From: a virus
Virus record (IMG/VR): IMGVR_UViG_3300008267_001162
Coordinates: 1-28,864 of that record
Direction: 5' to 3' (one strand)
DNA length: 28,864 nucleotides
Shown here in pieces: positions 6,993 through 28,600 of the stretch. The notes beneath the pieces are model-generated. The model was not told where the DNA came from, did no database searches, and worked only from the letters and a program-made list of their open reading frames with translations. Positions within the stretch are counted from its first letter, which is position 1. Every line of letters starts with the position of its first letter. The position numbers and the translations under genes were made by a program.

Positions 6993-8980
6993 TAGTTACT
7001 ATCATAATTGTTATTAGCAATATTACTACCATTAGCTAAAGAAATATATCTTTCGGGACCATAAGTACTTACAAATCCAAAATCATCTTCAACACTTCCT
7101 GTTGTATTATTATTAAATGCATAAGCATTATTTTGAATTCTTGGAATAAACTTTTGAATTGGTGTAAAGCTAAATCCAGTTACTTTAATCATATGTGGTA
7201 GTTCTTTTACTGAAGCATCTCCATTTCCGGCTTCACTAGCACCTATTCCAATTTCCCAAGGTGATTCACTTGGTACATCATATGTTAAAGCAGTTATAAA
7301 ACCAGGTTGTTCATAAACGTAACCACCTACTGTTAATTGTACTAAATTACCTCTCATGTATCCATTTGGACTATAATCTGGAGCAAGTGATGAAGCAAGA
7401 TAGTTCAATTTTTTATACATTGGAATGAGTTCTTGCTTTGATTGAGCAACAACTGTCCAAGATAATGAAAGTTGTCTTGTAAACCCACCATAAGTGTAAA
7501 ATTGTTCTCCTCTTCCTAAATAATTAAATCCGTTCCATGTAGCATTATATGAGTCAGACATTGAATCTATAAATGCTCTAAAATGTATAAATGTTTTAAA
7601 ATTAGGAGAATCGTTATCTATAACAGCAATCCTAAACTTAACTAAATCGTTTACATATTCTTCAGAAGTTACATTTTCACTTCTATATACGGGGATGGAG
7701 GTAATTTTATCTAATCCTGGTTGATATGATCCTATTCCAGGAATATCTATTGGGGAATAAATAGAAGTTCCATTTATAGTTTGAACTCCTTTTTCATAAT
7801 TAACATAACTTTTACCTGAGCGTTGTCCTGGATCTCCTAGTAATACTCTATTTTCTATATTTCTAGTATTATAATTAGGAGCATCTGGTGTAGCACCAGT
7901 TTGTTCAGCTTTTGTTTTTTGAGTACCTTGTAATTTTGTTCTTAAAATTGCTCTAAAATCTTGAGTTTTTGGACTACCATCTAATTTACCTACATTATTT
8001 TCAGTAGATATAATATCTTCTTGATTATAAGTAAAGGTATTATTAACGTAAATTAAAGAAGTATTTTTAGGCCATGTATTACCTTCAGTTGCAGGTTCAT
8101 ATACATTATGAAAATATGCATCTGTTGATGTACCAAGAGGATTAATATTAGTAGGAAGCCATGCTAATTTATCTCCTAAATTTTTTGTTAATCTATAATA
8201 TTTTCCTGTAACTCCTTTATTTTTAGATATTGCTGTATTGAAAAAAAGAGTTCTAGTATAATTAGGATCAATTATTTTTTTATAAGTTCCATCAAAATAA
8301 GGTTTTAATGTAGGAGATTTAGCTTGATAATTATTTAAACCTGTTCTATTAATACTATCAACATATCTTATACCAGTATTCCCTATTCCTAAAATAGAAC
8401 CAGGACCACCTGTATAAACCATAACATTTTGTCCATCATTCAATTTTGTACCATTATCAATACCAGTTGTAGAACCAGATACTGCATTGAATAATTTAAC
8501 TAATCTATTTTCAAGATTAGGTTGAGTAGATTTAACTCTAGTATTGTATAAAGAATTATTATTAGCATATGCTCCCGTTTGGGCAAACGGATTTATTCCT
8601 TGTTTATTTAAATGACCACCAAATGCTACAACACCAGCTTGAGCTAATGTATTTAAAGGTGAATAAATACCTTCATTTAAAACACCACTTGTTTGTGTAC
8701 GAACAGCAGTACGTGATAATAATTGTTGTTTTGCTATAAACAATAAACCATTTGGTGATTTAGTGTCTATAAACATTTTAGTTAAACGTTTAACGTCAGT
8801 AAGAGAATCTCCTATTGCGTTTACACCTCCTCTTAAAATAAAATCTTCACGTGGTCCTAAATCATTAAAGCCATCAGGAATTGAAGTTTGAATATAGGGT
8901 TGTCCACTATACCCTCCTCCAAGAGTATCCTTCCCATATCTTAGGGACTTAAGATCGGTCTTTAAATTAATTAAGGGCAT
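6992..8980 (-). CDS. Large baseplate protein, tail tube cap/initiator-like
   Basis: A 662-residue structural protein. Its C-terminal third (about 455-610) has a pattern seen in tube-cap or tube-initiator baseplate proteins of T4-like phages: FIHFRAFIDSMSDSYNATWN, then LGRGEQFYTYGGFTRQLSLSW, then ELIPMYKKLNYLASS and LVQLTVGGYVYEQPGFITAL, closing with SPWEIG. The first 450 residues are Asn/Gly/Thr-rich and not assignable by eye. It overlaps the next gene by one base and abuts the 80-residue repeat gene, so all are in one unit. The role (joining tail tube to baseplate, as T4 gp48/gp54 do) is inferred from this pattern and position after the tape measure. Confidence 0.6.
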   Translation of the reverse strand: MPLINLKTDLKSLRYGKDTLGGGYSGQPYIQTSIPDGFNDLGPREDFILRGGVNAIGDSLTDVKRLTKMFIDTKSPNGLLFIAKQQLLSRTAVRTQTSGVLNEGIYSPLNTLAQAGVVAFGGHLNKQGINPFAQTGAYANNNSLYNTRVKSTQPNLENRLVKLFNAVSGSTTGIDNGTKLNDGQNVMVYTGGPGSILGIGNTGIRYVDSINRTGLNNYQAKSPTLKPYFDGTYKKIIDPNYTRTLFFNTAISKNKGVTGKYYRLTKNLGDKLAWLPTNINPLGTSTDAYFHNVYEPATEGNTWPKNTSLIYVNNTFTYNQEDIISTENNVGKLDGSPKTQDFRAILRTKLQGTQKTKAEQTGATPDAPNYNTRNIENRVLLGDPGQRSGKSYVNYEKGVQTINGTSIYSPIDIPGIGSYQPGLDKITSIPVYRSENVTSEEYVNDLVKFRIAVIDNDSPNFKTFIHFRAFIDSMSDSYNATWNGFNYLGRGEQFYTYGGFTRQLSLSWTVVAQSKQELIPMYKKLNYLASSLAPDYSPNGYMRGNLVQLTVGGYVYEQPGFITALTYDVPSESPWEIGIGASEAGNGDASVKELPHMIKVTGFSFTPIQKFIPRIQNNAYAFNNNTTGSVEDDFGFVSTYGPERYISLANGSNIANNNYDSN

Positions 8981-9222
8981 TATCCAGGTAAGTTATCTAA
9001 ATATCTTTCAGGAGTTTTACCGTCTAAATCTAATTGGGATGTTGCTAAACTTTTTTGGTATTGTGTAAGTCTATCATAAGAAAGAGGTGTTTTACCATCT
9101 AAATCTAACTGAGAGGTTGCTAAACTTTTTTCATATTGGGTTACACCATCATATGATTTTGGAGTTTTTCCATCCCATTGAGTTAACTGTGATCCTTTAA
9201 TAAGTAAATCTTTTAGTGCCAT
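8980..9222 (-). CDS. 80-residue protein made of 25-residue tandem repeats
   Basis: After a short leader (MALKDLLIKGSQLTQW) the protein consists of two nearly identical 25-residue units starting DGKTPKSYDG and DGKTPLSYDR, then a partial third unit DGKTPERYLDNLPG. No known domain is recognised. The stop codon overlaps the start of the 662-residue baseplate gene, and a TATTTATA box lies 10 bases upstream of the ATG. Position between tape measure and baseplate genes suggests a small virion component or a peptide that binds a repeated partner, but nothing in the sequence proves that. Confidence 0.65.
   Translation of the reverse strand: MALKDLLIKGSQLTQWDGKTPKSYDGVTQYEKSLATSQLDLDGKTPLSYDRLTQYQKSLATSQLDLDGKTPERYLDNLPG
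9025..9174 (-). repeat. 75-bp coding tandem repeat, two full copies
   Basis: Copies at 9100-9174 and 9025-9099 encode the two full 25-residue units of the small protein. A truncated third copy runs to the stop codon at 8980. The copies differ at synonymous and a few amino acid positions, so the duplication is not brand new. Confidence 0.85.
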
Positions 9223-9246: not shown

Positions 9247-11832
9247 TTATTGAGTTTTGTAAGCACTGACAGACATTGCCGTACCTACTTTATTACCATC
9301 AAGATAAATATTACCACCAGTTTTAACAACAGTTATAAGTTCTTGTAGTAAAGCTACCATTTCATCTGTTCTACCTAATTTAGTGCCACCAGCACCTACT
9401 ACTGTATCTTCTGGTAGAGTTTTAATTACATAATCTTTAGCAGGTATTTCTCCACCGCTAGGAGCTTTTTCAAAGAATGGTGTAATGGCTTCACCTAATC
9501 CAGCAGCAGCATCAGGGAATAATCCTAATAGATTTTTAAATAACCAATCACCACCCATACTTCCTACTATAGTTCCTACAGGTCCACCAAGTGCTGTACC
9601 TAAAGCACCACCTAAAATACCACCTAAACCACCAGCAACTATTTTACCAACTTGTTGGTTTACTTGTTCTTTTGATAATGGTTTACCGTTTTCATCAACT
9701 GGATTTTCTAATAAACTTTTAATATCATTAATTGCAAAAAACCCAGTTAATAAAGTATTTAATCCTGGAATTTTTTTCAGGGCTGATTTAAAGAATCCAC
9801 CAACACCTCCTGCTGATTTTACTGCTCCTTTTATAGCAGTCATTGGGTTTAATTTACTAAGTAATCCTCCAAAAAATCCACCACCTCCAGACATAGCAGA
9901 TGCTGTACCAGCTTTAATAGCAGATTGAGCAGCAGCACCGTATACTTTTTTACCGGTTTCTTTCATAACAGCACCACCAGCAGCTCCTGCAGCACCACCA
10001 CCTCCACCAAGCATACCTCCTATACCCCCTAATGATTTTCCTAAACCAAGGAAGTTTGCAAATTTAATACCAGCTAATATAAGAGCACCTTTTACAATAC
10101 CATCCATTAATGGTTTTGATGATGCTAAAAATCCGGCAATATCGGCAATTGGAGTTACAATCGATTCAATGATTGGAGATAATTTTTCAAAAGCTGAAAT
10201 AAATTTTTCTTGAGCAGCTGCTAATCTTTCTTGTACTGATTGGCTTTTTAATTGGGATGCTAATTCATCATTGCCTAATTTGGCTAAAAATTCTGCTTCT
10301 TTACCTTGTTTACGTGCTAATTCATACTGTTCTTTAACAGCATCCATATTAGCAACTCCTAAAGTTTGTAAAGCTTGTTGTTCCATAAGCATGTCCGACA
10401 TTTCTTCACGGCTCATACCCATAGCTTTAGCAATAGACTCTTGTTGAAGTCTATTCATTTTACCAAATTTAACAGCATCAACTCCTTGAGCTTTTAACTC
10501 ACGACCTAATCCTACTAAATCATTATTTAAAGCAGCTCTTCTGGCTCCTTCTAAATTTAAATCTCTACCCGTTAATAATTCAGCTTCTAATTCTGCTGAA
10601 ATTGATTCTTCAAAATTAAGTAAAGAACCAGCTATATTATCTAATTTATCTAAACTTGTACCTAATGCTTTAGCTTGGGCTACACTCTTTACTAATGCTT
10701 GTGTACTACCACCTAATGATATTTTAGTAACATTTGAAGTTTTAGCAACTTCATCCATTATTTCTTTGTTACTAAAATTAATACCTAATTGTGCCTTAGT
10801 AACTTTTAATTGACCTAATAGTGAAGTAGTAGCTTGTTTTAAAGATACATTACGAAGTTTACTTAACTTAAGAGATTCATTTAAAATTTCTGGTTCAACC
10901 CCAGCAACATCTCTTAATTGGGTATATGTTTTTAAATCTTCTTCTGATACCTTAGCATTAGCTCCTAATGCTTTGTTAATTTCTAATTGAGACTGAAGTA
11001 ATTTAGATGCTGTTATATTAACATCACCTGAATTAGCTGCTATGCCTTCAAATTCTTTTCTAGTAGCTCTTGCTTCATCATAGGATATACCCATTTGTTT
11101 AGCAAAGTTACCAGTTTCGGTATCAACTTTTTGGAATATGTTATATAACTGTTTAACACCGGCTAAAACCAATGTTATACCAGTTAAAGGGTCCATTAAA
11201 CTAGTTTTTAAACTACTTCCTAATGAACTGAATGCTTTTTTCATTACACCAGCTGATGTGGAACCTTTTTTAGCTGCTTCTAATTGAGCCGCTCCTAAAG
11301 CTTCTTCAGCATCTATTAAATTTCCTAAGACAGGAATTTTAGAAATACCACCTATTAATTTACCAGTAACACCTAATTTTTGATTTATAGAATCGTAAGT
11401 ATTTGCTTGATCTTGTAAAATTTTAGCTTCATTATCTAAAGCTTCATTTATTTCTGTTTCTTTTTTTAATCTATTTTCTGTAGTGATTAACTGTAGATCT
11501 TCTAATTTTTGGAGGTTTTGTTGTAAAGTTAATCTTCTAAGTTGTAAACTTTGTTGTGCCTTATTTATATCAGATAATTTAAGGGCACCTTGATTTAATT
11601 TTAATTGATTTTGAAGCGCAATATCTAAACCTTTAGTTAAATCTGTAACAGATTTTACAGCTGATTTAGCTGTTGCTTTATTTATAGTATTAGATATTCT
11701 ATCAGCTACATCTAGTGTTTCTTCTAATCTTTCATTAATGGCTTCGCTAATCTGAGCACCAATTGATGTAATTTGGTCCCTCAGGAATCCTAATTCTGCA
11801 TTAAGTTTTTGAGTAGAATCTTGTTTAGCCAT
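9247..11832 (-). CDS. 29: Tail tape measure protein
   Basis: An 861-residue protein in the tape measure position, after the gp26-like chaperone and before the baseplate genes. The first 170 residues are charged and helical, typical coiled coil. Hydrophobic Gly/Ala-rich segments lie near residues 565-640 and 720-780 (for example GKIVAGGLGGILGGALG), as expected for the part that enters the membrane at DNA ejection. At about 0.15 nm per residue the tail would be near 130 nm, reasonable for a myovirus. The C-terminus (GGNIYLDGNKVGTAM) resembles the end of many tape measure proteins. The ATG at 11832 follows a TATTTATA box by 11 bases. Gene 29 is the T4 functional equivalent; sequence identity is not claimed. 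Confidence 0.82.
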   Translation of the reverse strand: MAKQDSTQKLNAELGFLRDQITSIGAQISEAINERLEETLDVADRISNTINKATAKSAVKSVTDLTKGLDIALQNQLKLNQGALKLSDINKAQQSLQLRRLTLQQNLQKLEDLQLITTENRLKKETEINEALDNEAKILQDQANTYDSINQKLGVTGKLIGGISKIPVLGNLIDAEEALGAAQLEAAKKGSTSAGVMKKAFSSLGSSLKTSLMDPLTGITLVLAGVKQLYNIFQKVDTETGNFAKQMGISYDEARATRKEFEGIAANSGDVNITASKLLQSQLEINKALGANAKVSEEDLKTYTQLRDVAGVEPEILNESLKLSKLRNVSLKQATTSLLGQLKVTKAQLGINFSNKEIMDEVAKTSNVTKISLGGSTQALVKSVAQAKALGTSLDKLDNIAGSLLNFEESISAELEAELLTGRDLNLEGARRAALNNDLVGLGRELKAQGVDAVKFGKMNRLQQESIAKAMGMSREEMSDMLMEQQALQTLGVANMDAVKEQYELARKQGKEAEFLAKLGNDELASQLKSQSVQERLAAAQEKFISAFEKLSPIIESIVTPIADIAGFLASSKPLMDGIVKGALILAGIKFANFLGLGKSLGGIGGMLGGGGGAAGAAGGAVMKETGKKVYGAAAQSAIKAGTASAMSGGGGFFGGLLSKLNPMTAIKGAVKSAGGVGGFFKSALKKIPGLNTLLTGFFAINDIKSLLENPVDENGKPLSKEQVNQQVGKIVAGGLGGILGGALGTALGGPVGTIVGSMGGDWLFKNLLGLFPDAAAGLGEAITPFFEKAPSGGEIPAKDYVIKTLPEDTVVGAGGTKLGRTDEMVALLQELITVVKTGGNIYLDGNKVGTAMSVSAYKTQ

Positions 11833-11854: not shown

Positions 11855-11880
11855 AAAGGCATCATTTTTTAGATGCCTTT
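11855..11880 (-). terminator. Hairpin at the end of the gp26-extension frame, possible terminator
   Basis: A 9-bp perfect stem (AAAGGCATC / GATGCCTTT) with an 8-base loop, followed on the minus strand by TTTTAATATTT. The stop codon at 11864-11862 lies at the foot of the loop. The T tract is short, so termination is probably partial and may set the level of tape measure transcription. Confidence 0.55.
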
Positions 11881-12131
11881 GTAACATAGGTTGGAACTTG
11901 AACTTTTGTACTAGCTGTAGCTCCAGCCGATTTCATATTTTTAATTGATTCTTGAACTGTGTCTTTTGGTGTATTTTTCTTTTCGTGAAATTCTTTTATT
12001 TTATTGTATGTAAAATTTCGCAACCAAATAGGCATGTCATAAATTATATCCCAACTGTATCCTCCTTGTCCATGAAATACAATTTCATGTATTTGGATAA
12101 AGAGTGAAGCTCTATACTCAGGCGTCAGGCC
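11862..12131 (-). CDS. 89-codon extension reached by +1/-2 frameshift from the gp26-like gene
   Basis: After the U7 run at 12138-12132, the frame that skips one base (or re-reads two) is open for 89 codons: GLTPEYRASLFIQIHEIVFH, then GQGGYSWDIIYDMPIWLRNF and a basic tail ending KASKK. The part before the first in-frame ATG (12035) looks like real protein sequence, and no good start codon exists upstream of that ATG, so independent initiation would lose a conserved-looking third. Its position, overlapping the end of a gp26-like gene and directly before the tape measure gene, matches the tail assembly chaperone pairs (lambda G and G-T) made by programmed frameshifting. It may act like T4 gp51, but its length differs. 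Alternative: one T too many in the homopolymer, which would make a single 340-residue fused protein. Confidence 0.68.
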   Translation of the reverse strand, partial: GLTPEYRASLFIQIHEIVFHGQGGYSWDIIYDMPIWLRNFTYNKIKEFHEKKNTPKDTVQESIKNMKSAGATASTKVQVPTYVTKASKK

Positions 12132-12876
12132 AAAAAAAGTTAAGCCCTACTGGGATAACGATGTCCTCCTCTACACCGTTTTCAGTTATGTGAGTATAAG
12201 ACATATCAACACCTGGGTTTATATTACTAATATATTCTCTAAGTGCTTTAGCATCACGAGCTAATAATCCATAATCTACAAATTCTCTAATGGTTTTCTT
12301 TTCATAATCACCATTAACAGAAATAATCATATTTTTTAATCGAGTTGAAATTTCAAATGAACCTTTAGGATCAATTTTTTTCAAACCAAGAATTTCTTTT
12401 TCTATAGCTTTTTCATCACCAACTGTTAACAATTTAAATGTAATCACATTACCTGTAGTTGGGAATTCAAAAGTAAATTCATTTTTTCTAGATTCTTTTA
12501 CTAAAGAAATATCAAATTCTTTTTCTTTTAAAGAACTTAAATCTACAGTAACAGTTTCTTCTACATCTGATGATGGGAAATTATATCTAAAACTATAATC
12601 TTTACCATAACCTAAAATACGAGCTGCTAATATAATAGCATCTTTATCACCAAGCAACAAATCATCATAATTAATTTTACTTATAATCATTGATTGGAGT
12701 AATTTGTCTAACCAAATACCTTGCTTAAGATAATTTGTATTGCTTAAAATATCTTCTTCTCTAGCAGTCATGTATTTCATTTCGATTTTACCTTCTGCTA
12801 GAGGTGAACCTTCAGGATATAATAAACCTTTTGAAGGTAAATCGATTGTTTCGGTTGGGAACTTAAATTCGGCCAT
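12118..12876 (-). CDS. 26: gp26-like baseplate hub assembly/tail chaperone protein
   Basis: The 252-residue product looks like the T4 baseplate protein family that includes gp26: an N-terminal FPTETIDLPSKGLLYPEGSP, then IEMKYMTAREEDILSNTNYL, a beta-rich middle, and a helical C-terminus with REFVDYGLLARDAKALREYI. It is cytoplasmic and thought to help assemble the hub and tape measure. The frame ends at TGA 12120-12118, twelve bases after a run of seven T residues where translation can shift into an 89-codon extension. A TATTTATA box lies 32 bases upstream and a strong terminator of the previous gene just above it, so this gene probably begins a new transcript. Confidence 0.75.
   Translation of the reverse strand: MAEFKFPTETIDLPSKGLLYPEGSPLAEGKIEMKYMTAREEDILSNTNYLKQGIWLDKLLQSMIISKINYDDLLLGDKDAIILAARILGYGKDYSFRYNFPSSDVEETVTVDLSSLKEKEFDISLVKESRKNEFTFEFPTTGNVITFKLLTVGDEKAIEKEILGLKKIDPKGSFEISTRLKNMIISVNGDYEKKTIREFVDYGLLARDAKALREYISNINPGVDMSYTHITENGVEEDIVIPVGLNFFWPDA
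12132..12138 (-). other. U7 candidate frameshift site
   Basis: The minus strand reads AAC TTT TTT TGG CCT GAC GCC TGA in the gp26-like frame. Re-pairing of Phe-tRNA on UUU after slipping +1 (or -2) is perfect within seven U residues and continues as GGC CTG ACG CCT into the open 89-codon extension. A -1 slip reaches a stop (TTG GCC TGA) at once, so the common -1 mechanism is excluded. No nearby stimulatory structure was identified. Confidence 0.6.
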
Positions 12877-12975: not shown

Positions 12976-13038
12976 TTAGAAGTTCAAGATACAGTAATCT
13001 GGTTGAACTGTCATTGTAATGTTTACAGCAGTACCACT
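12976..13038 (-). pseudogene. Out-of-frame C-terminal remnant of the tail tube gene
   Basis: In the -1 frame relative to the end of the tube gene, the minus strand encodes SGTAVNITMTVQPDYCILNF and then TAA at 12978-12976, just before the terminator. The ending (strand, then DYxxLxF-stop) is what T4-like tube proteins normally have. It indicates that the tube gene once continued to 12976 and that an internal piece of the C-terminal region, not a multiple of three bases, is missing. Confidence 0.72.
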
Positions 13039-13385
13039 ACAGGTCCTAATACGTCGAAAGTTAAATCTTTCTTATAGAAATCACTGTAACCATCTCTACC
13101 AGTTACTGATTCGTGGTGTAAACGTACCCATTCCATTACGGCTTGAGCACCTGAAGGAGTGATTGGATCGAATAATGTAAACTGGATAGTACCCCAAGTT
13201 GTTTTACCCTTAACGAAACGTTGTACGTTAATGTGATTAAGAGCTACTGTGCTTTGAGTTAAGTTTACAGCACCCACACCTTTGATCTCATAAGCAGGAA
13301 TACCATCGATATACATAATGAATCGGTTGGTTTGCTTTGGTTCAAAAGCTGTGAAAAATATTTCGTTTGGATCTAATACTGCCAT
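13023..13385 (-). CDS. 19: Tail tube protein (gp19-like), C-terminally disrupted
   Basis: The 120-residue frame matches T4-type tail tube proteins through residue 116: MAVLDPNEIFFTAFEPKQTN, then FIMYIDGIPAYEIKGVGA, VQRFVKGKTTWGTIQFTLFD and WVRLHHESVTGRDGYSDFYK. Tube proteins of this family are about 160 residues. Here the reading frame ends abruptly LGPVVVLL-stop, and the expected C-terminal strand appears in another frame downstream (12976-13038). Even if joined, about 20-25 residues are missing. The subunit stacks in hexameric rings to form the inner tail tube, so a broken copy should not give viable virions; an assembly collapse or a defective strain is likely. It lies directly downstream of the sheath gene with its own TATTTATA box 15 bases upstream of the ATG. 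Confidence 0.82.
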   Translation of the reverse strand: MAVLDPNEIFFTAFEPKQTNRFIMYIDGIPAYEIKGVGAVNLTQSTVALNHINVQRFVKGKTTWGTIQFTLFDPITPSGAQAVMEWVRLHHESVTGRDGYSDFYKKDLTFDVLGPVVVLL

Positions 13386-13424: not shown

Positions 13425-15155
13425 TTACGCTGGGAAAACAGCACCTGTTGGTAAGATGTTGAAATCTAGGTAAATGAATTCTGCAGTTTTAGTAGGTTGG
13501 ATATAAATTTGACCTACCATCTGGTTTCTATCAATTACATCAGCTGTGTTATTACTATCATCCATAATTACTTTGAACGCGTATAAACCTTGACGTTGTT
13601 GTACTGATTCTAAGTATGGGTTAACTTGACTTAAGAATTGGTTTCTTGTAGCAATTGTATTTTGTTCGAATACTAAATTTTGAGCTACTTGAGAAATGTA
13701 TGACTTAAGTTGAATTAACAATCTACGAACATTTACACGATCAAGTGCAGATGCTTTAGTTTGTAATGTTTTCTGACCGTATACTACAACTCCAGTACCT
13801 GGGAATGTTGCAATTGGATTAACTTTGTTTGTATATAAAGTATCGCGGTTAGCTTGAGATAATTTCTTTTCAGCTCTTACTACGTTACCTAAACCACCTC
13901 TGTTAATACCTGCTGGCGCAAACCATGGCTCACTTACGTTATCGTTATAAGCATAAACACCACCAATCATTGTTGAAGCTGGTACCCATACTAATTGAGC
14001 TGAATCTGGATCGATTGTTTGAACCCAAGGCCAGTAAGCTGCAGCGTATGAAGTATTTTTAGCGTTTGCTTGAGTAGTTACTTCTGAAATGCTTGAGCTA
14101 AAAGGTACTAAATCTGTTACGTAAATTGCATCTCCTCTGTTTTGAGTATTGTTAACAGCTGTAGTTACTTGAGAAGCACCTAAATTAGCTGTTGAAGAGA
14201 ATAAACCAGGAGTTAATAATACATTGTATCTGTAATCATCAACATTTCCTAGTAAATTAATCATATTAGTATATGCACTTGCTGTAATACCTTGTGGAGC
14301 TGTCGTTGATAAATCAATAGCACTGAAGTAATCAGCAGGTCCTACAAATAAAGAGCCAGAAGCAGCACCAAATGAACCACTACTATTTACTGGGATTGAA
14401 CCTGTTAATGCTGTTTTAGCTAAACCATTGTTATCAAAATATAATGGGGTTGGAGTTAATACACTTGATACATAAACGTATCTTGAATTGTTTGGATAAG
14501 TTCCAATTACTTCAATTTGGTTATCTGCTGAATTGTATTGTCTGTATTGGTCACCAATTAATCTAGCTACATAGTTAGGAGCTGTTGGGTCCATTGATAA
14601 GTTGGTCCAAGTTTCTAATACAATTGGAGAATTTGCATTATCATCACCTTGTCTAATTAACAAACTAAATGTACCAGATGATGTATCTCTGTTAGTAACT
14701 TGCCATCTAATGTTATCAATTGAACCTGAAACTAATGAACCACTAATATCCATGCTACCAGTGTTATTCATAACTTCACCTTGAGAAATAGTTTTTAATA
14801 CTAAAGCTTCAATGTTAGTTGATTGTACTATAGGAGTACCTGAACCAGTTGCGGTAGTTGCACTAGCAAATGAACCAGTTACTACTCTTGTTATTAATAA
14901 GGTTTGTCCACCGTTGTTAAAATAATTGTATGCAGCAATTGAGGTAAAATAGCTGTAAACTTGGCTTGCACTTAAAAAAGTAGTACCAAATTTATTTTGA
15001 TAGTCACTATAAGAAGTAACTATAGTTGGTACATTTACAGGGCCTTTTACTGTGGGACCGATAATAGCTGCTCCGACGGTTACGGGTTGAGAAGATACAA
15101 ATGAATTGTCGTTTTCTAACGCTAATACACCAGGAGATATTAATGTTTCTGCCAT
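13425..15155 (-). CDS. 18: Tail sheath protein (gp18-like)
   Basis: A 576-residue protein with the sheath signature: N-terminal MAETLISPGVLALENDNSFV and VTVGAAIIGPTVKGPVNVPT, a variable Ser/Thr/Asn-rich insertion domain, then AAYWPWVQTIDPDSAQLVWV and PASTMIGGVYAYNDNVSEPW (the conserved 'P-W ... G' core), and a C-terminal beta-handshake region with YIQPTKTAEFIYLDFNILPT. It polymerises around the tail tube and contracts on infection. It is followed by the tube gene, the standard order. The start is fixed by the conserved S-P-G-V motif close to the N-terminus. No disruption is seen. Confidence 0.95.
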   Translation of the reverse strand: MAETLISPGVLALENDNSFVSSQPVTVGAAIIGPTVKGPVNVPTIVTSYSDYQNKFGTTFLSASQVYSYFTSIAAYNYFNNGGQTLLITRVVTGSFASATTATGSGTPIVQSTNIEALVLKTISQGEVMNNTGSMDISGSLVSGSIDNIRWQVTNRDTSSGTFSLLIRQGDDNANSPIVLETWTNLSMDPTAPNYVARLIGDQYRQYNSADNQIEVIGTYPNNSRYVYVSSVLTPTPLYFDNNGLAKTALTGSIPVNSSGSFGAASGSLFVGPADYFSAIDLSTTAPQGITASAYTNMINLLGNVDDYRYNVLLTPGLFSSTANLGASQVTTAVNNTQNRGDAIYVTDLVPFSSSISEVTTQANAKNTSYAAAYWPWVQTIDPDSAQLVWVPASTMIGGVYAYNDNVSEPWFAPAGINRGGLGNVVRAEKKLSQANRDTLYTNKVNPIATFPGTGVVVYGQKTLQTKASALDRVNVRRLLIQLKSYISQVAQNLVFEQNTIATRNQFLSQVNPYLESVQQRQGLYAFKVIMDDSNNTADVIDRNQMVGQIYIQPTKTAEFIYLDFNILPTGAVFPA

Positions 15156-15455: not shown

Positions 15456-16667
15456 TTAATAAATATTCAAAATTTTATTAAGAGAATCAATTACTTGAGA
15501 AGGTTCAATTGTTTTTGTGCATTCAAAATGACGAGGAGTATTTTTATGATCTGGGCACCATTCCCAATCTCCTGGGTTTAGCCAATGGCGATTAAAACAT
15601 CCTTTACATGTTTGAGGATTTTTAGGAAATATTCTTTCACAATCTTGCATTTCAGTATATGGATAACTAAATCCTGAAATTAATACTGTTGGTGTGCCTA
15701 TTGCCCATGATAACCAACTCAATCCACTACCTAAACCAATAAATGCTTTAGCATCACGAATATCTACCATTCTATCTTCTAAAGGTACATCAAATCCAGT
15801 TTTATCAATAACTCGTTCTAAAGTACCACCTAATTTAGAATCATGCCATCCATCTCCTAAAGGTTCACCTGTAATCATTGCTACTTTATAACCTTTATCA
15901 TTTAAATAATCAATAACTGTTTGCCATCCTCCTGGATACATCCAATATTTAGCGTGTGCTGACGCATGAGGGGCAATTACAACATAATCTCCATCGATAT
16001 TTGTTTTTTGTTGAGGTAAATTAATTTTTGGTTTTACCTCTCTATATTTCATCCCTAATATTTCAGTTGCTGTTTGTTGTAAAGGATATTTTTTAAAATC
16101 AATAGGAGTCTTATCAAATACTATTTTTTTATCTTTATAAAACCATCCTACACTAAACATAGCATATAAATTAGTTACTTGATCTCCTGGTTTTACAAAT
16201 TGTAATTCAGGGTATTGTCCTTGAAACCATTCATTATGAAATGTAGAGCATACTACTTCACAGTCATTTTCTTTTCTAAATTCATCTATAAGGGGAAACC
16301 ATGCTAATGTATCTCCTAAAGCTGAACTTTCTAAATGAATATAAACTCTTTTACCTCTAGGATTAAATAAATGTTCAAACATTTTATATCCTGTTTCTTT
16401 ATCATATACTTCAATACGCCATTTAACTAAATATTTTATATTAGCACGAGTCCACATATTGTTACTAATGCTAGTTTCGTATAAAACTCGATTAGTTTTA
16501 GTATTAATAAATTTAATAAGATATTCTTTTTCTAAAGGTCCCAAAATTTCTATAAAGGGACCATCTAAAAAGTGAATATTAAAAACATTTTCAGGATCTT
16601 TACTAGGTATCCTTAATATTTCAACATTAGAGTATTCTTTAATTAAAACTTCTTTCATGATTTCCAA
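15456..16667 (-). CDS. TibC/AAH-like protein O-heptosyltransferase (GT9-type)
   Basis: A 403-residue glycosyltransferase with a beta-rich N-terminal domain (about 1-105), then a GT-B fold of the heptosyltransferase type. The motif HLESSALGDTLAWFP puts Asp119 where TibC and related enzymes have their catalytic Asp. VVIAPHASAHAKYWMYPGGW and DAKAFIGLGSGLSWLSWAIG match the nucleotide-sugar domain. The C-terminus has four cysteines, TCKGC (354, 357), WCP (371) and FEC (383), like the iron-binding cysteine set of the autotransporter heptosyltransferases TibC and AAH. Those enzymes add ADP-heptose-derived sugars to Ser side chains of adhesins. It overlaps the methyltransferase gene by 13 bases, the last of four sugar genes. 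The inferred substrate is a phage structural protein, most likely the adjacent Thr/Ser-rich fibre. Sugar donor and target are not shown by sequence. Confidence 0.8.
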   Translation of the reverse strand: MEIMKEVLIKEYSNVEILRIPSKDPENVFNIHFLDGPFIEILGPLEKEYLIKFINTKTNRVLYETSISNNMWTRANIKYLVKWRIEVYDKETGYKMFEHLFNPRGKRVYIHLESSALGDTLAWFPLIDEFRKENDCEVVCSTFHNEWFQGQYPELQFVKPGDQVTNLYAMFSVGWFYKDKKIVFDKTPIDFKKYPLQQTATEILGMKYREVKPKINLPQQKTNIDGDYVVIAPHASAHAKYWMYPGGWQTVIDYLNDKGYKVAMITGEPLGDGWHDSKLGGTLERVIDKTGFDVPLEDRMVDIRDAKAFIGLGSGLSWLSWAIGTPTVLISGFSYPYTEMQDCERIFPKNPQTCKGCFNRHWLNPGDWEWCPDHKNTPRHFECTKTIEPSQVIDSLNKILNIY

Positions 16668-17341
16668 TAATATATAAAACTTTGATAATAACCAAGTGAA
16701 ATAAAATGATTATTAAAACCTTTATCGGCAAAGAATGTAACAAATTTTAATCGTTCTGCATCTCTTTGTTCATCTGTTAAGGTTTCTACATCTTCATGAT
16801 ATTCAAAAAATATCTTTTGTATTTTATCCCACGTGATTTGACTTACATTTTCAAAAACATATTTTTCATGGCCTTCAATATCACATTTTAAGTAATCTAC
16901 TTTTGTAAGGTTGTGTTTTGAAAAAAATTCATCTAATGTAATACATTGTATAGGTTGAGTTTCCCACCAATTAGGCCATCTTGGAATATCAATGTATCCT
17001 TTTTCAGATCCAATAGCTACATTATCTACAATCCAATTATAGTTTTTATTTTTATTTAATGCTTCAAATACTCCTGGATCTGGTTCAACACAATATATTT
17101 TAGAACAACCTTTAGATTCTGCTCTAATAGCAGACATACCAATGTTTGCTCCTAAATCTAAATAAATATCCCCACATTGCATTCCAGGACCATAAGCATT
17201 TAATTCATCATGAATTAAATTTCCATAAGCCATTGATCCTTCCCAACCATATCTTTCTCCGATTTCATTAATGTTGCCGGATGTATCCCATGTTGAGATA
17301 TCAATCATTCGATTATCTTTTGTATAAAATTTAGTGCGCAT
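16655..17341 (-). CDS. FkbM-type SAM-dependent methyltransferase
   Basis: The 228-residue product has the FkbM family layout: SAM-binding motif I at YLDLGANIGMSAIRA (about 60-74), the acidic end of strand 2 at YCVEPDPGVFEAL (83-95), the FkbM motif ITLDEFF (134-140), and VDYLKCDIEGHEKYVFE (148-164) with the conserved D-I-E-G-H-E. Members of this family O-methylate sugars or small molecules. It overlaps the upstream glycosyltransferase by 11 bases and the downstream heptosyltransferase by 13, so the three are translationally coupled. The likely job is to O-methylate a sugar placed by the neighbouring transferases, a cap seen in other surface glycans. The substrate is inferred from context. Confidence 0.85.
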   Translation of the reverse strand: MRTKFYTKDNRMIDISTWDTSGNINEIGERYGWEGSMAYGNLIHDELNAYGPGMQCGDIYLDLGANIGMSAIRAESKGCSKIYCVEPDPGVFEALNKNKNYNWIVDNVAIGSEKGYIDIPRWPNWWETQPIQCITLDEFFSKHNLTKVDYLKCDIEGHEKYVFENVSQITWDKIQKIFFEYHEDVETLTDEQRDAERLKFVTFFADKGFNNHFISLGYYQSFIYYWKS

Positions 17342-18278
17342 ATTCGTTAAATAATTTTAATAAGTCTCTTGAACGGTTTAACCATGATAATTCTTGTGAT
17401 GTGTTTAATGAACGTTTTCTATAATCATCGTATTCATTAATAATTGTATCTAAACCTCGTAACATTTCTTTTAAGTTTCGAGGTGATCTCCATAATCCAT
17501 GAAACGTAGTTTCCATTTCTATCCATCCTAATATTGGCAAACCACAAGCAGCTGCTTCTAATAATGTAAGATTAGGATGTCCGGCTTCCAACTCTGAGGG
17601 ATGAAGAAATATAGTATGTGATGTGTAAAGTTGTCTTAATTGTTCATTTGAGGGTTCCCACATCATTGTTAATTTGGGATAACCTTTAACCCAAGGATTA
17701 TCATTAAGCCAATTTTCATTATTTTTAGGTCCAGCAATTGTAATAGGTAAATTACGAGACATTGCTACTTGTACTCCTAATCCAAATCCTTTTCTATCAT
17801 AAGCATCATATCCACCTAAACCATTATTTGCTAACATAAGCAAATTATGATTTATAGGATAATTTTCATTTGGATAAAAGGAATGTGTATCTACACCGTG
17901 TGAAAAATAATATACATTTGGTAAATCAAAATAATCAACTAAATAACGAGCAGGTACTAATGAAAAAATAGATTTTTCCATTGCCTCTCTATTTTCTTTA
18001 TAATTAAATGAATCTTTTCCATGATGATAAGCATGATGATCATGATGTTGAAAAATGTAAGGAATATCTCTTTCAGCTAACATTAATGCTAGATTAGCTA
18101 CATGAACCATTACAATATCATATTCTCCTTTTTGAATATCAGCACACCATTTAATATCAACTTCGTGTCCTAATTCTTTAAGATTACAAGTAAATTCCCA
18201 TACAATTTTTTCAATAGCTCCCCAAGCTGGAGGAGGGATAGGAATACCGCAACCTGGATTTACTTGGCAAATTTTCAT
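17331..18278 (-). CDS. GT4-like glycosyltransferase
   Basis: A 315-residue GT-B enzyme. The N-terminal domain starts MKICQVNPGCGIPIPPPAWG with the Gly-rich acceptor loop and helix GAIEKIVWEF typical of GT4. The C-terminal donor-binding region has IFLHPSELEAGHPNLTLLEA with Glu231 and Glu241, followed by AAACGLPIL. The spacing between the two Glu is x9 instead of the usual x7. Several His-rich turns (HHDHHAYHH, 79-86) are unusual. The gene starts within the last four bases of the upstream 663-residue transferase (ATGA overlap) and overlaps the methyltransferase gene, so it belongs to the sugar cassette. Donor and acceptor are unknown; a chain-extending role after protein-linked sugar addition is possible. 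Confidence 0.82.
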   Translation of the reverse strand: MKICQVNPGCGIPIPPPAWGAIEKIVWEFTCNLKELGHEVDIKWCADIQKGEYDIVMVHVANLALMLAERDIPYIFQHHDHHAYHHGKDSFNYKENREAMEKSIFSLVPARYLVDYFDLPNVYYFSHGVDTHSFYPNENYPINHNLLMLANNGLGGYDAYDRKGFGLGVQVAMSRNLPITIAGPKNNENWLNDNPWVKGYPKLTMMWEPSNEQLRQLYTSHTIFLHPSELEAGHPNLTLLEAAACGLPILGWIEMETTFHGLWRSPRNLKEMLRGLDTIINEYDDYRKRSLNTSQELSWLNRSRDLLKLFNEYAH

Positions 18279-20266
18279 AAAACTTTTTCTAAAAATCCGT
18301 TTAATTGTAATTTATTATCTATATACTCTTGATTTATAGTAATTACTTTTTTGTTTAAAAGTTTATTATTTTGACAATCATAAAAATCAAAAGTTAATGT
18401 AATTTCTTTTCCATTAAATTGATATAATCTATACCAAGCAAATTTGCGAGTAATATTAATATCTTCACTAAAAATTTCTTCACCTTCTTCTATAGCTTTT
18501 ACAACTAAAAGTCTATTATCTACTTCATTTGAATTTTGATAATAAATGGCAAAATTATTTTCAACATTTGTTGGTAAAACAGTAACATATTCTATACGAG
18601 AAAAATTATTATGTTTAAAATTTTCACTAACTAATTTATCCCAATTTTCTGCTGACTCTACGTGGATTTGATTCCTAAAAGGTTGTAGAGCATAATAAAA
18701 TATATTTTCATATCCATTAGATAAACTACCTACTTTATGTTTTAAATTATCATATTGAGTAGAAGTAGATATAAATTCATGAGTTTGAAAAAATAAATCT
18801 GTTTGAATACCTACAAAAAAAGTACTACTTACTTTACCTTCTGAATATTCTCGTTCATCAACAAATGCTCTTTTTTTATTTAGTCTAAAAGAAACATCGT
18901 TTATAAATTCAGGATTAGTTAAAATATAGTCGTAATTAATAAAAAATAATTTTTTAATTCCTATATTTTTTGCTAATGAAGCCGCATTATAATAATTTGT
19001 ATAAACAGCAGGACCATGGTAAACATCATTATCTTCACCACGTAAAAGAGTAGTTACTTTAAAATGACCATAATCAACCCAACAATGATGGTAAAAATCA
19101 TGTTTAGTTAAAAGATTATTTTTATCATAAACACAATAATCAACTAATTCTTGTAATTCTTCAGGAATAGGAACATGAGAAGTTAATATAATTTTTCTTC
19201 CAGTTTGTTTAAAAGATTCAATACATTCTTTTGTAGAGTCTATTACACTTTGTTGAACAGGATATGTAGAAATTATAACTGCTTCTTCTTCAATATTAAT
19301 TGTTTCTTCTACCTCAAGAGTTTTTTTAATTAATTCACAATTATTTTCAAAATTATCAAATTCAAGATAATTTACACCTTCAAATTTATCAAAATAATTT
19401 TGGTAAACATTTAAGTTATAAATTAAAGTAGGGATTTGATTTGAAATTGCCTCACGAATAACTAAAGGCATAGTTTCTTTATCATTATATGTTCCTCTTG
19501 ATGTAAATAAAAACAAATCCATTGCCTGATAAAAAGCATCTACATCTGTACGTTCATTCCACCATGTTAAATTAGGAGGAGTATCTTGTTCTAATGGTTC
19601 CCAATACCATCTAAAATTGTCTGCTCTATTACCTAAACTATGAAACTCATATTCAGGAAGTGCACGAGCATATTCAAAAAATTCTTTTTGATTTTTACGA
19701 GAAGTGTATAGGCCAACGTGTAATACGTGTCTTTTAGTTGGATCTAACTGTAGTTTACGCAATGCCTCATCACGATTGGGGCGATCAACATATTCAATAG
19801 GATATTCAACTAATACGCTTGGTATACTGATATTTTTGTATTGATTTATCTGCCAATTTGAAACAAACATAAATTTATCTGGGAAGAATTTTTTATGTTC
19901 TATATTAAAAGATGAATCGTGAGATGTTTCTACGATTTTATAATTTCTATCAGTTTTGTATAGTTTTTTAGCTACATCAAAATCCATATAGAATTCAGGA
20001 ATTTCTTCTGTGTGAACTATATCAGGTTGAACACGATTGATTATATCAATCAGTTCCATTTTATTTTCCCCTAATGTAAAAAATTTATCAGTATCAACTA
20101 ATTTTTTAACTTTATTTCTTGTAACTACAAGAACACCACCAGTACAATCAACCCATTCTACAAGATAAATCTCATAGGTATCTTTAAGTAATTCTATTTT
20201 TTTGGTTAAATATTGTGGGAGCCCACCAGTTGATAAATGTGGAGCAATAAATAACAATTTTTGCAT
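18275..20266 (-). CDS. Multidomain glycosyltransferase with extra C-terminal domains
   Basis: A 663-residue protein. Residues 1-310 form a GT4-like GT-B unit: MQKLLFIAPHLSTGGLPQYL, then HVLHVGLYTSRKNQKEFFEY at about 180, and LFLFTSRGTYNDKETMPLVI with REAISNQIPTLIY. Residues about 330-560 form a second domain beginning AVIISTYPVQQSVIDSTKEC, with DFYHHCWVDYGHFKVTTLLR and GIKKLFFINYDYILTNP, which may be a second glycosyltransferase-like (GT-A) domain. The last 100 residues are strand-rich and could bind sugar or protein. It opens the sugar cassette, with a TATTTATA box 14 bases upstream inside an inverted repeat. The enzyme may build a disaccharide or act as both initiating and extending transferase; this is inference. 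Confidence 0.72.
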   Translation of the reverse strand: MQKLLFIAPHLSTGGLPQYLTKKIELLKDTYEIYLVEWVDCTGGVLVVTRNKVKKLVDTDKFFTLGENKMELIDIINRVQPDIVHTEEIPEFYMDFDVAKKLYKTDRNYKIVETSHDSSFNIEHKKFFPDKFMFVSNWQINQYKNISIPSVLVEYPIEYVDRPNRDEALRKLQLDPTKRHVLHVGLYTSRKNQKEFFEYARALPEYEFHSLGNRADNFRWYWEPLEQDTPPNLTWWNERTDVDAFYQAMDLFLFTSRGTYNDKETMPLVIREAISNQIPTLIYNLNVYQNYFDKFEGVNYLEFDNFENNCELIKKTLEVEETINIEEEAVIISTYPVQQSVIDSTKECIESFKQTGRKIILTSHVPIPEELQELVDYCVYDKNNLLTKHDFYHHCWVDYGHFKVTTLLRGEDNDVYHGPAVYTNYYNAASLAKNIGIKKLFFINYDYILTNPEFINDVSFRLNKKRAFVDEREYSEGKVSSTFFVGIQTDLFFQTHEFISTSTQYDNLKHKVGSLSNGYENIFYYALQPFRNQIHVESAENWDKLVSENFKHNNFSRIEYVTVLPTNVENNFAIYYQNSNEVDNRLLVVKAIEEGEEIFSEDINITRKFAWYRLYQFNGKEITLTFDFYDCQNNKLLNKKVITINQEYIDNKLQLNGFLEKVL

Positions 20267-20985: not shown

Positions 20986-23900
20986 TTATTTATTTACTTT
21001 AGCTTCTAATTCTTTAACTTTATCATTTAATTCTTTAATAGCTTCAATTAATAGAGCATTTAAGTTACCATATGCTACTGATTTCATACCTGTTCTAGCA
21101 TCTGTATGTACTACTTCTGGAAGTACTACTTCTACTTCTTGAGCAATAACACCCGCGTGTCTGTGTTGATTATCTTCATCACCATCTAATCTTATAAATG
21201 TTACACCAGCTATTTGACTAATTTTATCAAGTGCATTTGGTATTACTTGAATATCACCTTTAATTCTTCTATCAGAGAATGCTTGAATATCATCTGATGC
21301 GTAGATAGATATACCACTTACGTTACCATTTACGTGTAATTTGTAAGATGGAGATGTTGTGCTAATACCTAATCTATCATTTGTATTATCAACGTATAAG
21401 AAGTCGGTACTTTGAACTGTAGTTGCGTTAACAGTGTATATTAAGTAGTTAGGTTGGTTGTTAAATGTACCACCACTAATACCTGAAGTACCACCTGTAG
21501 TAGATAAACCTGATGTTGTAGCTAAACCAGAAGTACCAAAGCTACCGCTTGTACCTGAAGTACCACTTGTTGAACTTAAACCACTTGCACCTGCATTACC
21601 TGATGTACCTGATGAACCTGTTGAACCTGAAGTTCCTGAAGTTCTTGATAAACCAGAAGCACCCGCATTACCTGATGTACCTGATGAACCATTAGTTCCA
21701 CTTGTACCTGATGTACCTGATGCTGAACTTTGACCTCCTGTTCTTGCAGCACCTGTTGTACCTGATGTACCTGATGTACCTGATGTGAAGCTTGGTGTGC
21801 TACCACCTGCAGCTTGTGCGGCACCACTTGTACCTGATGTACCACTAGTACCACTAGTTTGTGATGCTGAACTTGAACCGGCTGTTTGAACAGCACCTGA
21901 AGTACCACTTGTACCACTTGTACCACTTGTTTGTGATGCTGAACTTGTACCTGCAGCTTGAACAGCTCCGTTTGTACCGCTTGTACCTGAAGTACCGCTT
22001 GTTTGTGATGCTGTACTTGTACCTGCATTTGTAGCAGCACCACTTGTACCTGTAGAACCTGAGGTTCCACTAGTACCTGATGTACCACTTGTACCACTTG
22101 CTGTACTTTGACCTGCAGTTCGTGCGGCACCTGTTGTACCTGAAGTACCTGATGTACCTGAAGTTTGGCTTGATGAGCTTGTACCTGCTGATTGAACAGC
22201 TCCTGATGTACCTGATGTACCACTTGTACCTGAAGTTTGTGATAATGAACTTGAACCTGCATTTGCCGCCGCACCACTTGTACCTGTAGAACCTGATGTG
22301 CCACTTGTGCCACTTGTGCCACTTGTACCACTTGCTGTACTTTGACCTCCTGTTCTTGCAGCACCTGTTGTACCTGATGTACCTGATGTACCTGATGTAA
22401 AGCTTGGTGTACTACCACCTGCAGCTTGTGCTGCACCACTTGTACCTGATGTACCACTAGTACCTGAGGTTTGTGATGCTGTACTTGTACCTGCGTTTGC
22501 TGCCGCACCACTTGTACCTGATGAACCATTTGTACCTGAAGTACCTGATGTTGCACTTGCACCACTCACACCTGCGGCACCTGCTATACCTGAAGTACCT
22601 GAAACACCATTTGTGCCTGAAGTACCACTCGTACCTGAAGTACCTGATGCGGTGCTTGTACCAGAGTTTGTAGCTTGACCTGAAGTACCATTTGAACCAG
22701 TTGTTCCGCTTGTTCCGCTTGTTCCGCTAGTACCTGATGTTCTTGATAAACCAGAAGCACCAGCATTACCTGCTGTACCCGCGCTACCACTTGTACCACT
22801 AGTACCGCTTGTACCACTAGTTTGGCTTGCTGAACTTGTACCTGCAGTTCGTGCAGCACCTGATGTACCACTTGTTCCGCTTGTTCCTGAAGTACCTGAT
22901 GCTGTACTTAAGCCTGAAGTTGTAGCTAAACCACTTGTACCGAAACTACCGCTTGTACCTGATGTACCACTTGTTGAACTTATACCGCTTGCACCTGCGT
23001 TACCTGAAGTACCTGTTGAACCATTTGTACCTGATGTACCACTTGTTCCACTAGTACCTGAAGCACCTGCTGCACCTCCAGTACCTGCGCTACCATTTGT
23101 ACCTGATGTACCACTTGTACCTGAAGTTCTTGATAAACCTGATGCACCATCATTACCTGATGTGCCTGTTGAACCTGAAGTTCCTGAAGTACCTGATGTT
23201 CTACTATTTCCAGCAACACCTGCTGTACCTGCTGAACCGTTTGTACCTGAAGTGCCGCTTGTTCCTGAAGTTTGTGAAGCACCTGAAGCACCTGCTGTAC
23301 CCGCTGTACCAGCGCTACCACTTGTACCTGATGTACCGCTAGTACCTGATGTACCACTTGCTGTACTTTGACCTGAAGTTCTTGCTGCACCTGAAGTACC
23401 AGCACTACCGCTTGTACCTGAAGTACCTGCTGTACCTGCACTACCACTAGTACCACTAGTTCCACTTTCACCACTTATACCTGAAGCACCTGTTGCACCT
23501 GAAGTACCATTTGAACCAGTTGTACCTGATGTACCACTCGTACCTGAAGTTCCGCTTGTTGTGCTTAAACCTGAAGTTCTAGCTAAACCACTTGTACCAA
23601 AACTACCGCTAGTACCACTTGTACCACTTGTTGAACTTACACCACTTGCACCAGCATTACCAGATGTACCTGCACTACCATTAGTTCCGCTTGTACCTGA
23701 TGTGCCACTAGTACCTGCAGCACCTGCATTACCTGATGTACCTGCGCTACCATTAGTACCGCTAGTACCACTTGTACCACTTGTTCCTGAAGTTCTACTT
23801 AAACCTGATTGGCCTGCTGTACCTGCGGAACCATTAGTTCCACTTGTACCTGAAGTGCCTGATGTACCTGATGTACTTGAAATATTAGAACTACCTGCTG

Positions 23901-25617: not shown

Positions 25618-28600
25618 GACCAGCAGTACCTGTAGAACCTGTTGTTCCTGATGTGCCTGATGTGCCTGAAGTACCTGATGTTTGACTTAAACCTGAAGTA
25701 CCTGTTGCACCTGATGTACCTGCGGTACCAGTTGTACCTGATGTACCACTTGTACCACTTGTTCCACTTGTTGAGCTTGAACCAGAAGTTCTAGATAAAC
25801 CAGAAGTACCGAAGCTACCACTTGTGCCTGAAGTACCTGAAGTTGAACTTACACCACTTGCTCCCGCATTACCTGAAGTACCTGCTGAACCATTTGTACC
25901 GCTTGTTCCTGATGTTCCGCTTGTTCCTGAAGTACCAGCTGCGCCTGAATTTCCTGAAGTACCTGCTGAGCCATTAGTTCCGCTAGTACCTGAAGTGCCT
26001 GAGGTACCTGAGGTATTAGATGTACCTGAATTTCCTGAAGTACCGTTTGAACCATTAGTACCAGATGTACCTGAAGTACCAGATGTACCAGAAGTTCTAG
26101 AAGCACCAGCATTACCTGCTGTACCTGTAGAACCATTTGTTCCACTTGTACCGCTAGTACCACTTGTTTGTGATGCACCTGAAGAACCAGCGGCACCAGT
26201 AGTACCAGCTGAACCATTTGTGCCACTTGTACCTGAAGTACCACTTGTTTGGCTATTACCTGAGGTACCTGCGCTACCATTTGTACCGCTTGTACCTGAA
26301 GTACCTGATGTTTGAGATTGACCAGAAATACCTGCTGTACCTGCTGAACCGTTTGTACCACTTGTACCCGAAGTGCCTGAAGTGCCTGAAGTGCCACTAT
26401 TACCTGCTAAACCGCTTGTACCTACTGAACCTGAAGTACCGCTTGTACCAGAGGTTGAACTTAATCCTGATTGACCGGCAGCTCCAGCTGTACCATTTGA
26501 GCCGTTTGTTCCTGAAGTACCACTTGTGCCTGATGTTCTAGAAGCACCTGCTGTACCAGTAGTACCATTAGTACCACTTGTACCTGAAGTACCTGATGTA
26601 CCTGCTGCGCCTGAATTTCCTGATGTACCTGAAGAACCATTAGTTCCTGAAGTACCTGATGTACCAGAAGTACCTGCTGCGCCTGAATTTCCTGATGTAC
26701 CTGAAGAACCATTAGTTCCTGAAGTACCTGATGTACCAGAAGTACCTGATGTTCCTGAAGTTTGTGATAAACCTGATTGACCAGCTGTACCTGCGGAACC
26801 TGTTGTTCCTGAAGTTCCGCTTGTACCTGATGTACCACTTGTTTGTGATGCGCCTGAAGAACCAGCAATACCTGATGTACCTGCTGTACCGGCTGTACCA
26901 CTTGTACCTGAAGTACCACTTGTTGTACTTGAACCTGAAGTTCTAGCTAAACCACTTGTACCAAAGCTACCACTTGTACCTGATGTACCTGAAGTTGAAC
27001 TTAAACCACTTGCTCCAGCATTACCCGCGGTACCTGTTGAACCATTTGTACCGCTTGTACCGCTAGTTCCTGAGGTTTGGCTTAAACCTGATTGACCAGC
27101 TGTACCTGCTGAACCTGTTGTGCCGCTAGTACCTGATGTACCTGAAGTACCTGCGGTACTTGATGCGCCTGATTGACCTGCGGTACCTGCTGAACCTGCT
27201 GTTCCACTTGTACCACTAGTTCCTGAAGTTTGTGAAGAACCTGATGTACCTGCGGTTCCATTAGTACCACTTGTACCACTTGTTCCTGATGTACCTGCAG
27301 TTCCAGAAGCACCTGATGTACCTGCACTACCATTTGTACCGCTTGTACCTGATGTTCCTGAGGTACCTGCTGTACCACTATTACCTGCTAATCCTGAGGT
27401 ACCTACTGAACCTGAAGTACCAGAAGTACCTGAGGTTGAACTTAATGCTGATTGACCAGCGGCACCTGCTGTACCTGTAGTACCGTTTGTTCCACTAGTA
27501 CCACTTGTACCTGATGTACCAGCAGTTCTAGAAGCGCCTGATGTTCCTGCGGTACCATTAGTACCACTTGTACCACTTGTACCTGATGTACCAGCAGTAC
27601 CTGAAGCTCCTGCACTACCTGCTGTACCTGCGCTACCATTTGTTCCGCTAGTACCTGAAGTACCTGAAGTTTGGCTTGCACCTGAAGTACCTACGACGCC
27701 TGATGTGCCTGAAGTACCGGATGTACCTGCAGTACCGCTTGTTGTGCTTGAACCTGAAGTTCTAGCTAGACCAGAAGTACCGAAGCTACCACTTGTACCA
27801 CTTGTACCACTTGTTGAACTTAAACCGCTTGCACCTGCGTTACCTGAAGTACCTGCGCTACCATTAGTTCCTGAAGTTCCACTAGTACCTGATGTACCAG
27901 CAGCACCTGCATTACCTGCAGTACCGTTTGAACCTGTTGTTCCTGATGTACCTGATGTACCTGATGTACCTGAAGTTTGGCTTGCGCCTGATTGACCTGC
28001 GGTACCATTTGAACCTGCTGTTCCGCTTGTGCCACTTGTTCCTGAAGTTTGAGATAAACCTGAAGTACCTGTGCTACCATTTGTACCGCTTGTACCTGAA
28101 GTACCTGATGTTCTACTATTTCCTGATTGACCTGCGGTACCTGAAGAACCATTTGTTCCTGAAGTACCACTTGTTCCTGATGTACCTGCTGTACCACTAT
28201 TACCTGCTAATCCTGAGGTACCTACTGAACCACTAGTACCACTAGTTCCAGAAGTTGAACTTAATCCTGATTGTCCAGCAGCACCTGCTGTACCAGCACT
28301 ACCGTTTGTACCTGAAGTACCGCTTGTACCTGATGTTTGTGATGAACCTGAAGTACCTGCTGTACCGTTTGTACCACTCGTACCACTAGTACCTGAAGTA
28401 CCAGCGGCACCAGCATTACCTGAGGTACCAATACTACCGTTAGTACCTGATGTACCACTAGTACCGCTTGTACCTGAGGTTTGTGATATTCCTGATTGAC
28501 CTGCAGTACCATTTGAACCGTTTGTTCCTGAAGTACCTGAAGTACCGCTTGTTTGTGAAGAACCTGATGTTCCTGCAGTACCGTTTGTTCCGCTAGTTCC

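Follow-up and report, generated by a model that had tools for sequence, protein, structure and literature searches.

A conserved YUU_U site and an out-of-frame extension point to +1 frameshifting in the gp26-like tail chaperone gene of a T4-like phage

How might a single phage tail gene give rise to two proteins? The question is raised by an 89-codon reading frame, without a start codon of its own, that runs out of the 3' end of a gp26-like gene in a viral genome sequence. The window analyzed here is the whole stretch of 28,864 nt (IMG/VR record IMGVR_UViG_3300008267_001162, positions 1 to 28,864). On its minus strand the tail sheath gene (13425..15155; PF04984, PF17482 and phrog_23 at 4.9e-75) is followed by the tail tube gene (13023..13385; phrog_4542, 3.6e-12), the gp26-like gene (12118..12876), the out-of-frame extension (11862..12131) and, 29 nt downstream of the extension, an 861-aa ORF (9247..11832) in the tape measure position. 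Assignment of this ORF as the tape measure protein rests on its position and length, and it has no family match of its own in Pfam-type and phrog profile searches. The same order of sheath, tube, gp26-like gene, extension and tape measure is common to the window and to phages SP-15, LIS04 and immuto, and in all three phages a tail tape measure is annotated at the equivalent place. Being flanked by major tail genes on one side and by the tape measure gene on the other is one of the features expected of a gene of the lambda G/GT type. We consider it very probable that the gp26-like gene encodes two tail assembly chaperones, the longer one made by a +1 shift at UUU-UUU-UGG (12130..12138); this reading comes from sequence alone, and there are no peptide, reporter or ribosome-profiling data behind it.

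A separate peculiarity of this contig lies upstream. The tail tube ORF is truncated and its frame shifted, with 79 nt absent relative to the related locus L001 at junction 13036/13037 (between CCTGTAG and TGGTACTGC). The tube gene is whole in relatives, and the loss is likely to be either an assembly error or a true deletion of this contig.

The gp26-like ORF ends GGG CTT AAC TTT TTT TGG CCT GAC GCC TGA, with a run of seven U residues at 12138..12132 and the zero-frame stop four codons beyond it. The frame that either a +1 or a -2 shift would enter continues after TTT TTT as GGC CTG ACG CCT GAG and stays open for 89 codons, from GGC at 12131 to TAA at 11864..11862; upstream of the site it is open for only 4 codons. 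It contains no ATG, GTG or TTG before codon 33, and its first ATG, 33 codons downstream, falls midway along the conserved domain. The extension consequently overlaps the gp26-like ORF in another frame and has no start of its own, a second feature of G/GT-type genes. The predicted fused product is 337 aa. A first-pass annotation of this DNA had described the U run, the nearby stop and the open 89-codon frame, had judged the extension to lack a suitable start, and had ruled out a -1 shift, since that frame meets TGA at once (TTG GCC TGA); each of these statements was borne out by the sequence.

The arrangement is shared by a large lineage. The extension lies in the same +1 frame in 184 of 186 relatives, viral contigs and isolates together, and at the same +1 offset in all 13 bacterial-MAG loci from GTDB genomes. 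The 184 loci were assembled from the best IMG/VR relatives, further scans and isolates, and include a few duplicates (e.g., L104 is SP-15 and L105 is RM378); among the 13 GTDB-genome loci, L218 and L219 are identical. The best 80 IMG/VR relatives all carry the extension at the +1 offset. Among the isolates with a +1 extension are the Flavobacterium phage immuto, Microcystis phage Mel-JY01, Listeria phage LIS04, Bacillus phage SP-15, Streptococcus phage GXN1 and Rhodothermus phage RM378; close-relative scans using SP-15 and RM378 returned only these two themselves. Such sharing of one offset is far beyond chance. The annotated records that we checked overlook the fusion, or treat its second half as a protein apart, labeled "hub assembly catalyst" or hypothetical.

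The junction follows the consensus [TTT/TTC/CTT]-[TTT/CTT]-T, nearly always with TGG CCT. TTT-TTT-TGG is found 149 times, TTC-TTT-TGG 14, TTT-CTT-TGG 10 and CTT-TTT-TGG 3 times; rarer forms are TTT-TTT-TAC and TTT-TTT-CAC (2 each) and TTT-CTT-TAC, TTT-TTT-AGT, TTC-TTT-CGT and TTT-CTA (1 each). YTT_T is kept in 182 of the 184 +1-offset loci, or is represented by UUU_C- or UUU_A-type variants in the handful of most distant phages (SP-15, LIS04, GXN1 and L083), with the junction reading UUC_UUU_CGU in GXN1, UUU UUU AGU in LIS04 and AAC-TTT-CTA in L083. Preservation of the slippery site across relatives, with the frame offset unchanged, is the third G/GT-type feature. Alignment with relatives had been proposed as a check on whether the U run and the offset are conserved; the offset and the YTT_T site are, and the run itself is shorter, at 3-4 T, in the TTC-TTT-T and TTT-CTT-T variants.

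For codon statistics we used 87 representatives with <80% nucleotide identity. The P-site Phe codons among them are TTT in 81 of 81 cases; over the rest of the gene the share of TTT is 77% (~10^-9 for the bias, phylogeny ignored). Almost no variation is seen in the 12 bases TTT-YTT-TGG-CCT, in contrast to the third positions on either side. Past the zero-frame stop, nucleotide differences number 5254, 2813 and 13824 at +1-frame codon positions 1, 2 and 3. The extension is under coding constraint, and there is a strong case that it would be translated in the +1 frame; the act of shifting into it is an inference. RNAalifold detected no conserved base pairs in 29 relatives, the downstream RNA of the window folds no better than shuffled sequences (z -0.78), and the aligned relatives have no conserved purine-rich SD-like element upstream of the site. 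UUU_UGG also occurs in frame in two further genes of the window, so that the tetramer by itself would be insufficient for shifting. A hungry Trp codon model is weak, because TGG, at 1.2% of codons, is not rare.

Could the two frames be joined in some other way, or not joined at all? A sequencing or assembly indel hiding an in-frame fusion has some initial appeal, given that homopolymers are error-prone and that the neighboring tube gene has its 79-nt deletion, but the identical offset recurs in ~190 independent contigs and isolates, some of them variants without the homopolymer, and the chance of such an artifact is vanishingly small. Base-calling error at the U run is likewise excluded by the independent contigs and isolates. 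Slippage of the polymerase on the seven-T run of the window could also generate a fusion during transcription; the TTT-CTT-T and TTC-TTT-T relatives have the identical offset with only 3-4 T, and since these variants without a T run exclude transcriptional slippage we give it almost no weight. It is formally conceivable that the extension is an independent small gene, expressed through re-initiation or an internal start and never fused. Short separate ORFs are annotated there in GenBank records, and in two relatives, L116 and L121, a stand-alone ORF that begins at its own ATG shortly after the gp26 stop carries the extension. In both, however, the extension has moved to the third frame, and in L116 the slippery site has also gone; these two loci appear to represent a natural loss of the frameshift. 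Elsewhere, 72 of 183 loci have no start of any kind between the stop upstream and the twelfth codon beyond the site, the window has none before codon 33, and protein conservation reaches right to the shift site. An independent start in relatives would have refuted the frameshift, and it is met with only in L116 and L121, in a different frame; we regard an unfused gene as quite improbable.

A subtler alternative is a -2 shift at the same site. Such a shift is known for the tail chaperone of phage Mu, reaches the same relative frame, and would give a product with one extra Phe. The UUU UUU U of the window allows P-site re-pairing after -2 as after +1, and UUU UUU AGU of LIS04 re-pairs better after -2 unless the first UUU slips; only with the first UUU as the slip codon does LIS04 fit +1 cleanly. 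Other relatives bar clean re-pairing at -2, for the P-site tRNA would be mismatched in TTC-TTT-TGG (14 loci), in TTC-TTT-CGT (GXN1) and in AAC-TTT-CTA (L083), so that re-pairing at -2 is not maintained in every relative. The TTC-TTT-T, TTC-TTT-CGT and AAC-TTT-CTA sites re-pair cleanly after +1 (UUU to UUY), and it is on this ground that +1 is favored over -2. The TTT-CTT-TGG variant also speaks for +1, with a P-site slip from YUU to UUU like that of prfB. Phage tail chaperones use -1, -2 or +1 shifts, +1 is the commoner route into the +1 frame, UUU_Ynn is especially +1-prone in bacteria, and prfB-type tests ranked CUU_U as the +1 site of highest efficiency (PMC5009743). We regard the -2 shift as unlikely. 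The first-pass annotation had left the choice between +1 and -2 undecided: a shift into the frame that they share is strongly supported, and of the two +1 fits the relatives better, the direction being inferred.

Under the preferred +1 reading, translation by the majority of ribosomes would end at TGA and give the 252-aa gp26-like protein. A minority, its size also a matter of inference, would shift +1 at UUU-UUU-UGG with the A-site codon unfilled: the P-site tRNA-Phe (tRNA-Leu in CUU variants) would slide one base forward at 12135..12133, from UUU to UUU, with U12132 skipped. The shifted ribosomes would then read 89 further codons to produce the 337-aa protein with an additional helical domain. 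By analogy with lambda gpG and gpGT, coating of the tape measure protein would fall to the short form, and recruitment of tube subunits to the tail domain of the long form. As with the lambda pair (Xu, Hendrix and Duda), a single gene immediately preceding the tape measure gene would yield products with a shorter or a longer C terminus, the second frame has no start of its own, and the slippery site is conserved; the window differs in its +1 rather than -1 shift, its PF12322 core and its YUU_U site. The slip itself is closer to that of prfB (release factor 2), where a YUU_U P-site tRNA slips onto UUU, CUU_U being the prfB slip. Unlike prfB, the window has sense UGG and not UGA in the A site (UGG, UAC and others in the family, not a stop) and lacks the conserved upstream SD-like element, and where prfB is an autoregulatory switch, the window gene would yield two proteins. 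Frameshifting in tail chaperones is already known, and a +1 shift was proposed earlier for the tail chaperone of the haloarchaeal myovirus HSTV-2 (PMC5009743, PMC8211752), which differs in being an archaeal virus.

The identity of the short product was approached through its family and fold. The core scores 30.1 bits against PF12322 (T4_baseplate; curated cut-off 24.5) and matches phrog_150 at 1.1e-11, in agreement with its earlier description as the gp26-like frame of a T4-like phage. PF12322 is also matched by SP-15, LR756508, GXN1, RM378 and Atu_ph07, and no match at E <= 0.01 was obtained for immuto and Mel-JY01. With core and extension modeled separately by AF2, the core model (pLDDT 92.9) has BFVD matches to T4-like gp26 proteins and to the "baseplate hub subunit" of SP-15 (TM 0.85). 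Its best PDB match among 992 aligned chains is the HK97 tail assembly chaperone 2ob9, which is modest (Z 5.3; 76 residues, rmsd 4.2) and covers core residues 1-95 only. When the window core was compared directly, profile to profile, with P-SSM4 gp26, the probability was a poor 29.8%, and the link to the gp26 family rests instead on PF12322, phrog_150 and the BFVD fold matches. Gene order and the modest HK97 match make a tape measure chaperone the best reading of the core; that it binds the tape measure is inferred without protein data. Of a G/GT-type gene one would further expect a fusion protein that is made in a fixed ratio, binds the tape measure and is missing from the virion. The tail assembly chaperone identity given at first pass gains support from gene order and from the conservation of site, frame and extension, together with the modest HK97 resemblance. 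The extension model is a three-helix domain (mean pLDDT 73) with no significant match in BFVD, and none of the 6 PDB chains ranked by Foldseek aligned to it with Z 2 or more. DUF6760, a Pfam family of unknown function, matches 8 of 46 extension sequences (best 1e-5); we found no paper that links DUF6760 with contractile injection systems.

A comparable pair of proteins may exist in T4 itself. PF12322 is matched by T4 gp26 as well as by T4 gp51; the two proteins also align to one another (BLAST 2e-6) and, as these alignments indicate, are paralogs. In profile comparison the C-terminal tail of gp51 matches the extensions found in -1 phages, cyanophages among them (P 5.8e-6), and the -1 extensions in turn match the +1 extensions (P 4.2e-6). 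T4 gp26 ends GLKEFF-ELL, with FF, encoded by TTC TTT, at the position of the relatives' shift site. T4 thus resembles the window in its PF12322 core, its extension-like gp51 end and the placement of its gp26 end, and differs in having two separate paralogous genes with no need of a frameshift. These likenesses suggest that T4 gp26 and gp51 may be the same short and long pair made from two genes.

In cyanophages such as P-SSM4, the gp26-like core is likewise followed, at an FF site, by a homologous extension that is out of frame, with the difference that the frame is -1 and the site U_UUU_UUC. All 80 cyanophage-type IMG/VR loci (69 representatives) pair a T_TTT_TTC site with a -1 extension; the -1 heptamer pattern X_XXY_YYZ is satisfied in this lineage and not in that of the window. 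No start codon is found in the first 14 codons of the -1 frame in 18 of the 80 loci; the others have one, so that re-initiation is possible there. The cyanophage gp51 (L094:8325-8522, loci L225-L304) is annotated as a separate gene and is apparently a -1 frameshift product of gp26. T_TTT_TTC at the end of the gp26-like gene, with a gp51-like frame at -1, also occurs in P-SSM4, KVP40, Mosig, S-SM2, Desulfovibrio 7757, BUCT608, avDM12 and Atu_ph07, and phiM7 has T_TTT_TTT with a gp51-like frame at -1. The KVP40 annotators noted a 40-aa similarity to T4 gp51 and kept the genes separate. Agrobacterium phage Atu_ph07 and the 595-kb uncultured phage LR756511 (L090, L091) have a -1 extension at T_TTT_TTC and cores nearer to the +1 lineage. 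Ackermannvirus-type gp26 genes (L096, L102 and L223: Det7, Vibrio D494 and rabagast) have an extension-like -1 frame that is mostly unannotated, with a weaker slip site, ATT-TTC or CTT-TTC.

In a tree of 32 cores, two -1 phages, Atu_ph07 and LR756511, group with the +1 lineages, and the remaining -1 lineages group with T4. Four changes suffice, and long branches leave the details unsure. It is likely, if less secure than the frameshift in the window, that gp26 and gp51 of the whole T4 supergroup are a chaperone pair of the lambda G/GT kind, produced through -1 shifting at U_UUU_UUC in the cyanophages and in a number of other groups, through +1 shifting at YUU_U in the large lineage of the window, and through duplication in T4. 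One protein pair would then have been maintained across phages by three routes. gp26 and gp51 have been listed as hub assembly chaperones, and gp51 as an essential protein whose function is unknown and which the particle lacks (PMC3004832). If correct, the G/GT-kind reading accounts for gp51 being essential yet missing from the virion, and a short and a long tape measure chaperone would give gp26 and gp51 each a testable role. We found no description of the family's site, the -1/+1 switch or the T4 gp26/gp51 link in open-access papers, which is weak evidence of novelty. A +1 site that has neither a stop codon nor conserved RNA structure is also a good natural case for studies of +1 frameshifting.

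Three further regions of the window deserve mention. Between the tape measure and baseplate genes, an 80-aa ORF (8980..9222) consists of ~3 tandem repeats of DGKTPLSYDxLTQYxKSLATSQLDL. Four ORFs between the sheath and fiber genes (15456..20266) resemble, by eye only, glycosyltransferases and a methyltransferase. The fiber-like coding region at 20986..28641 is a low-complexity GTSGTSGT repeat of great length, and spurious ORFs lie on both of its strands.
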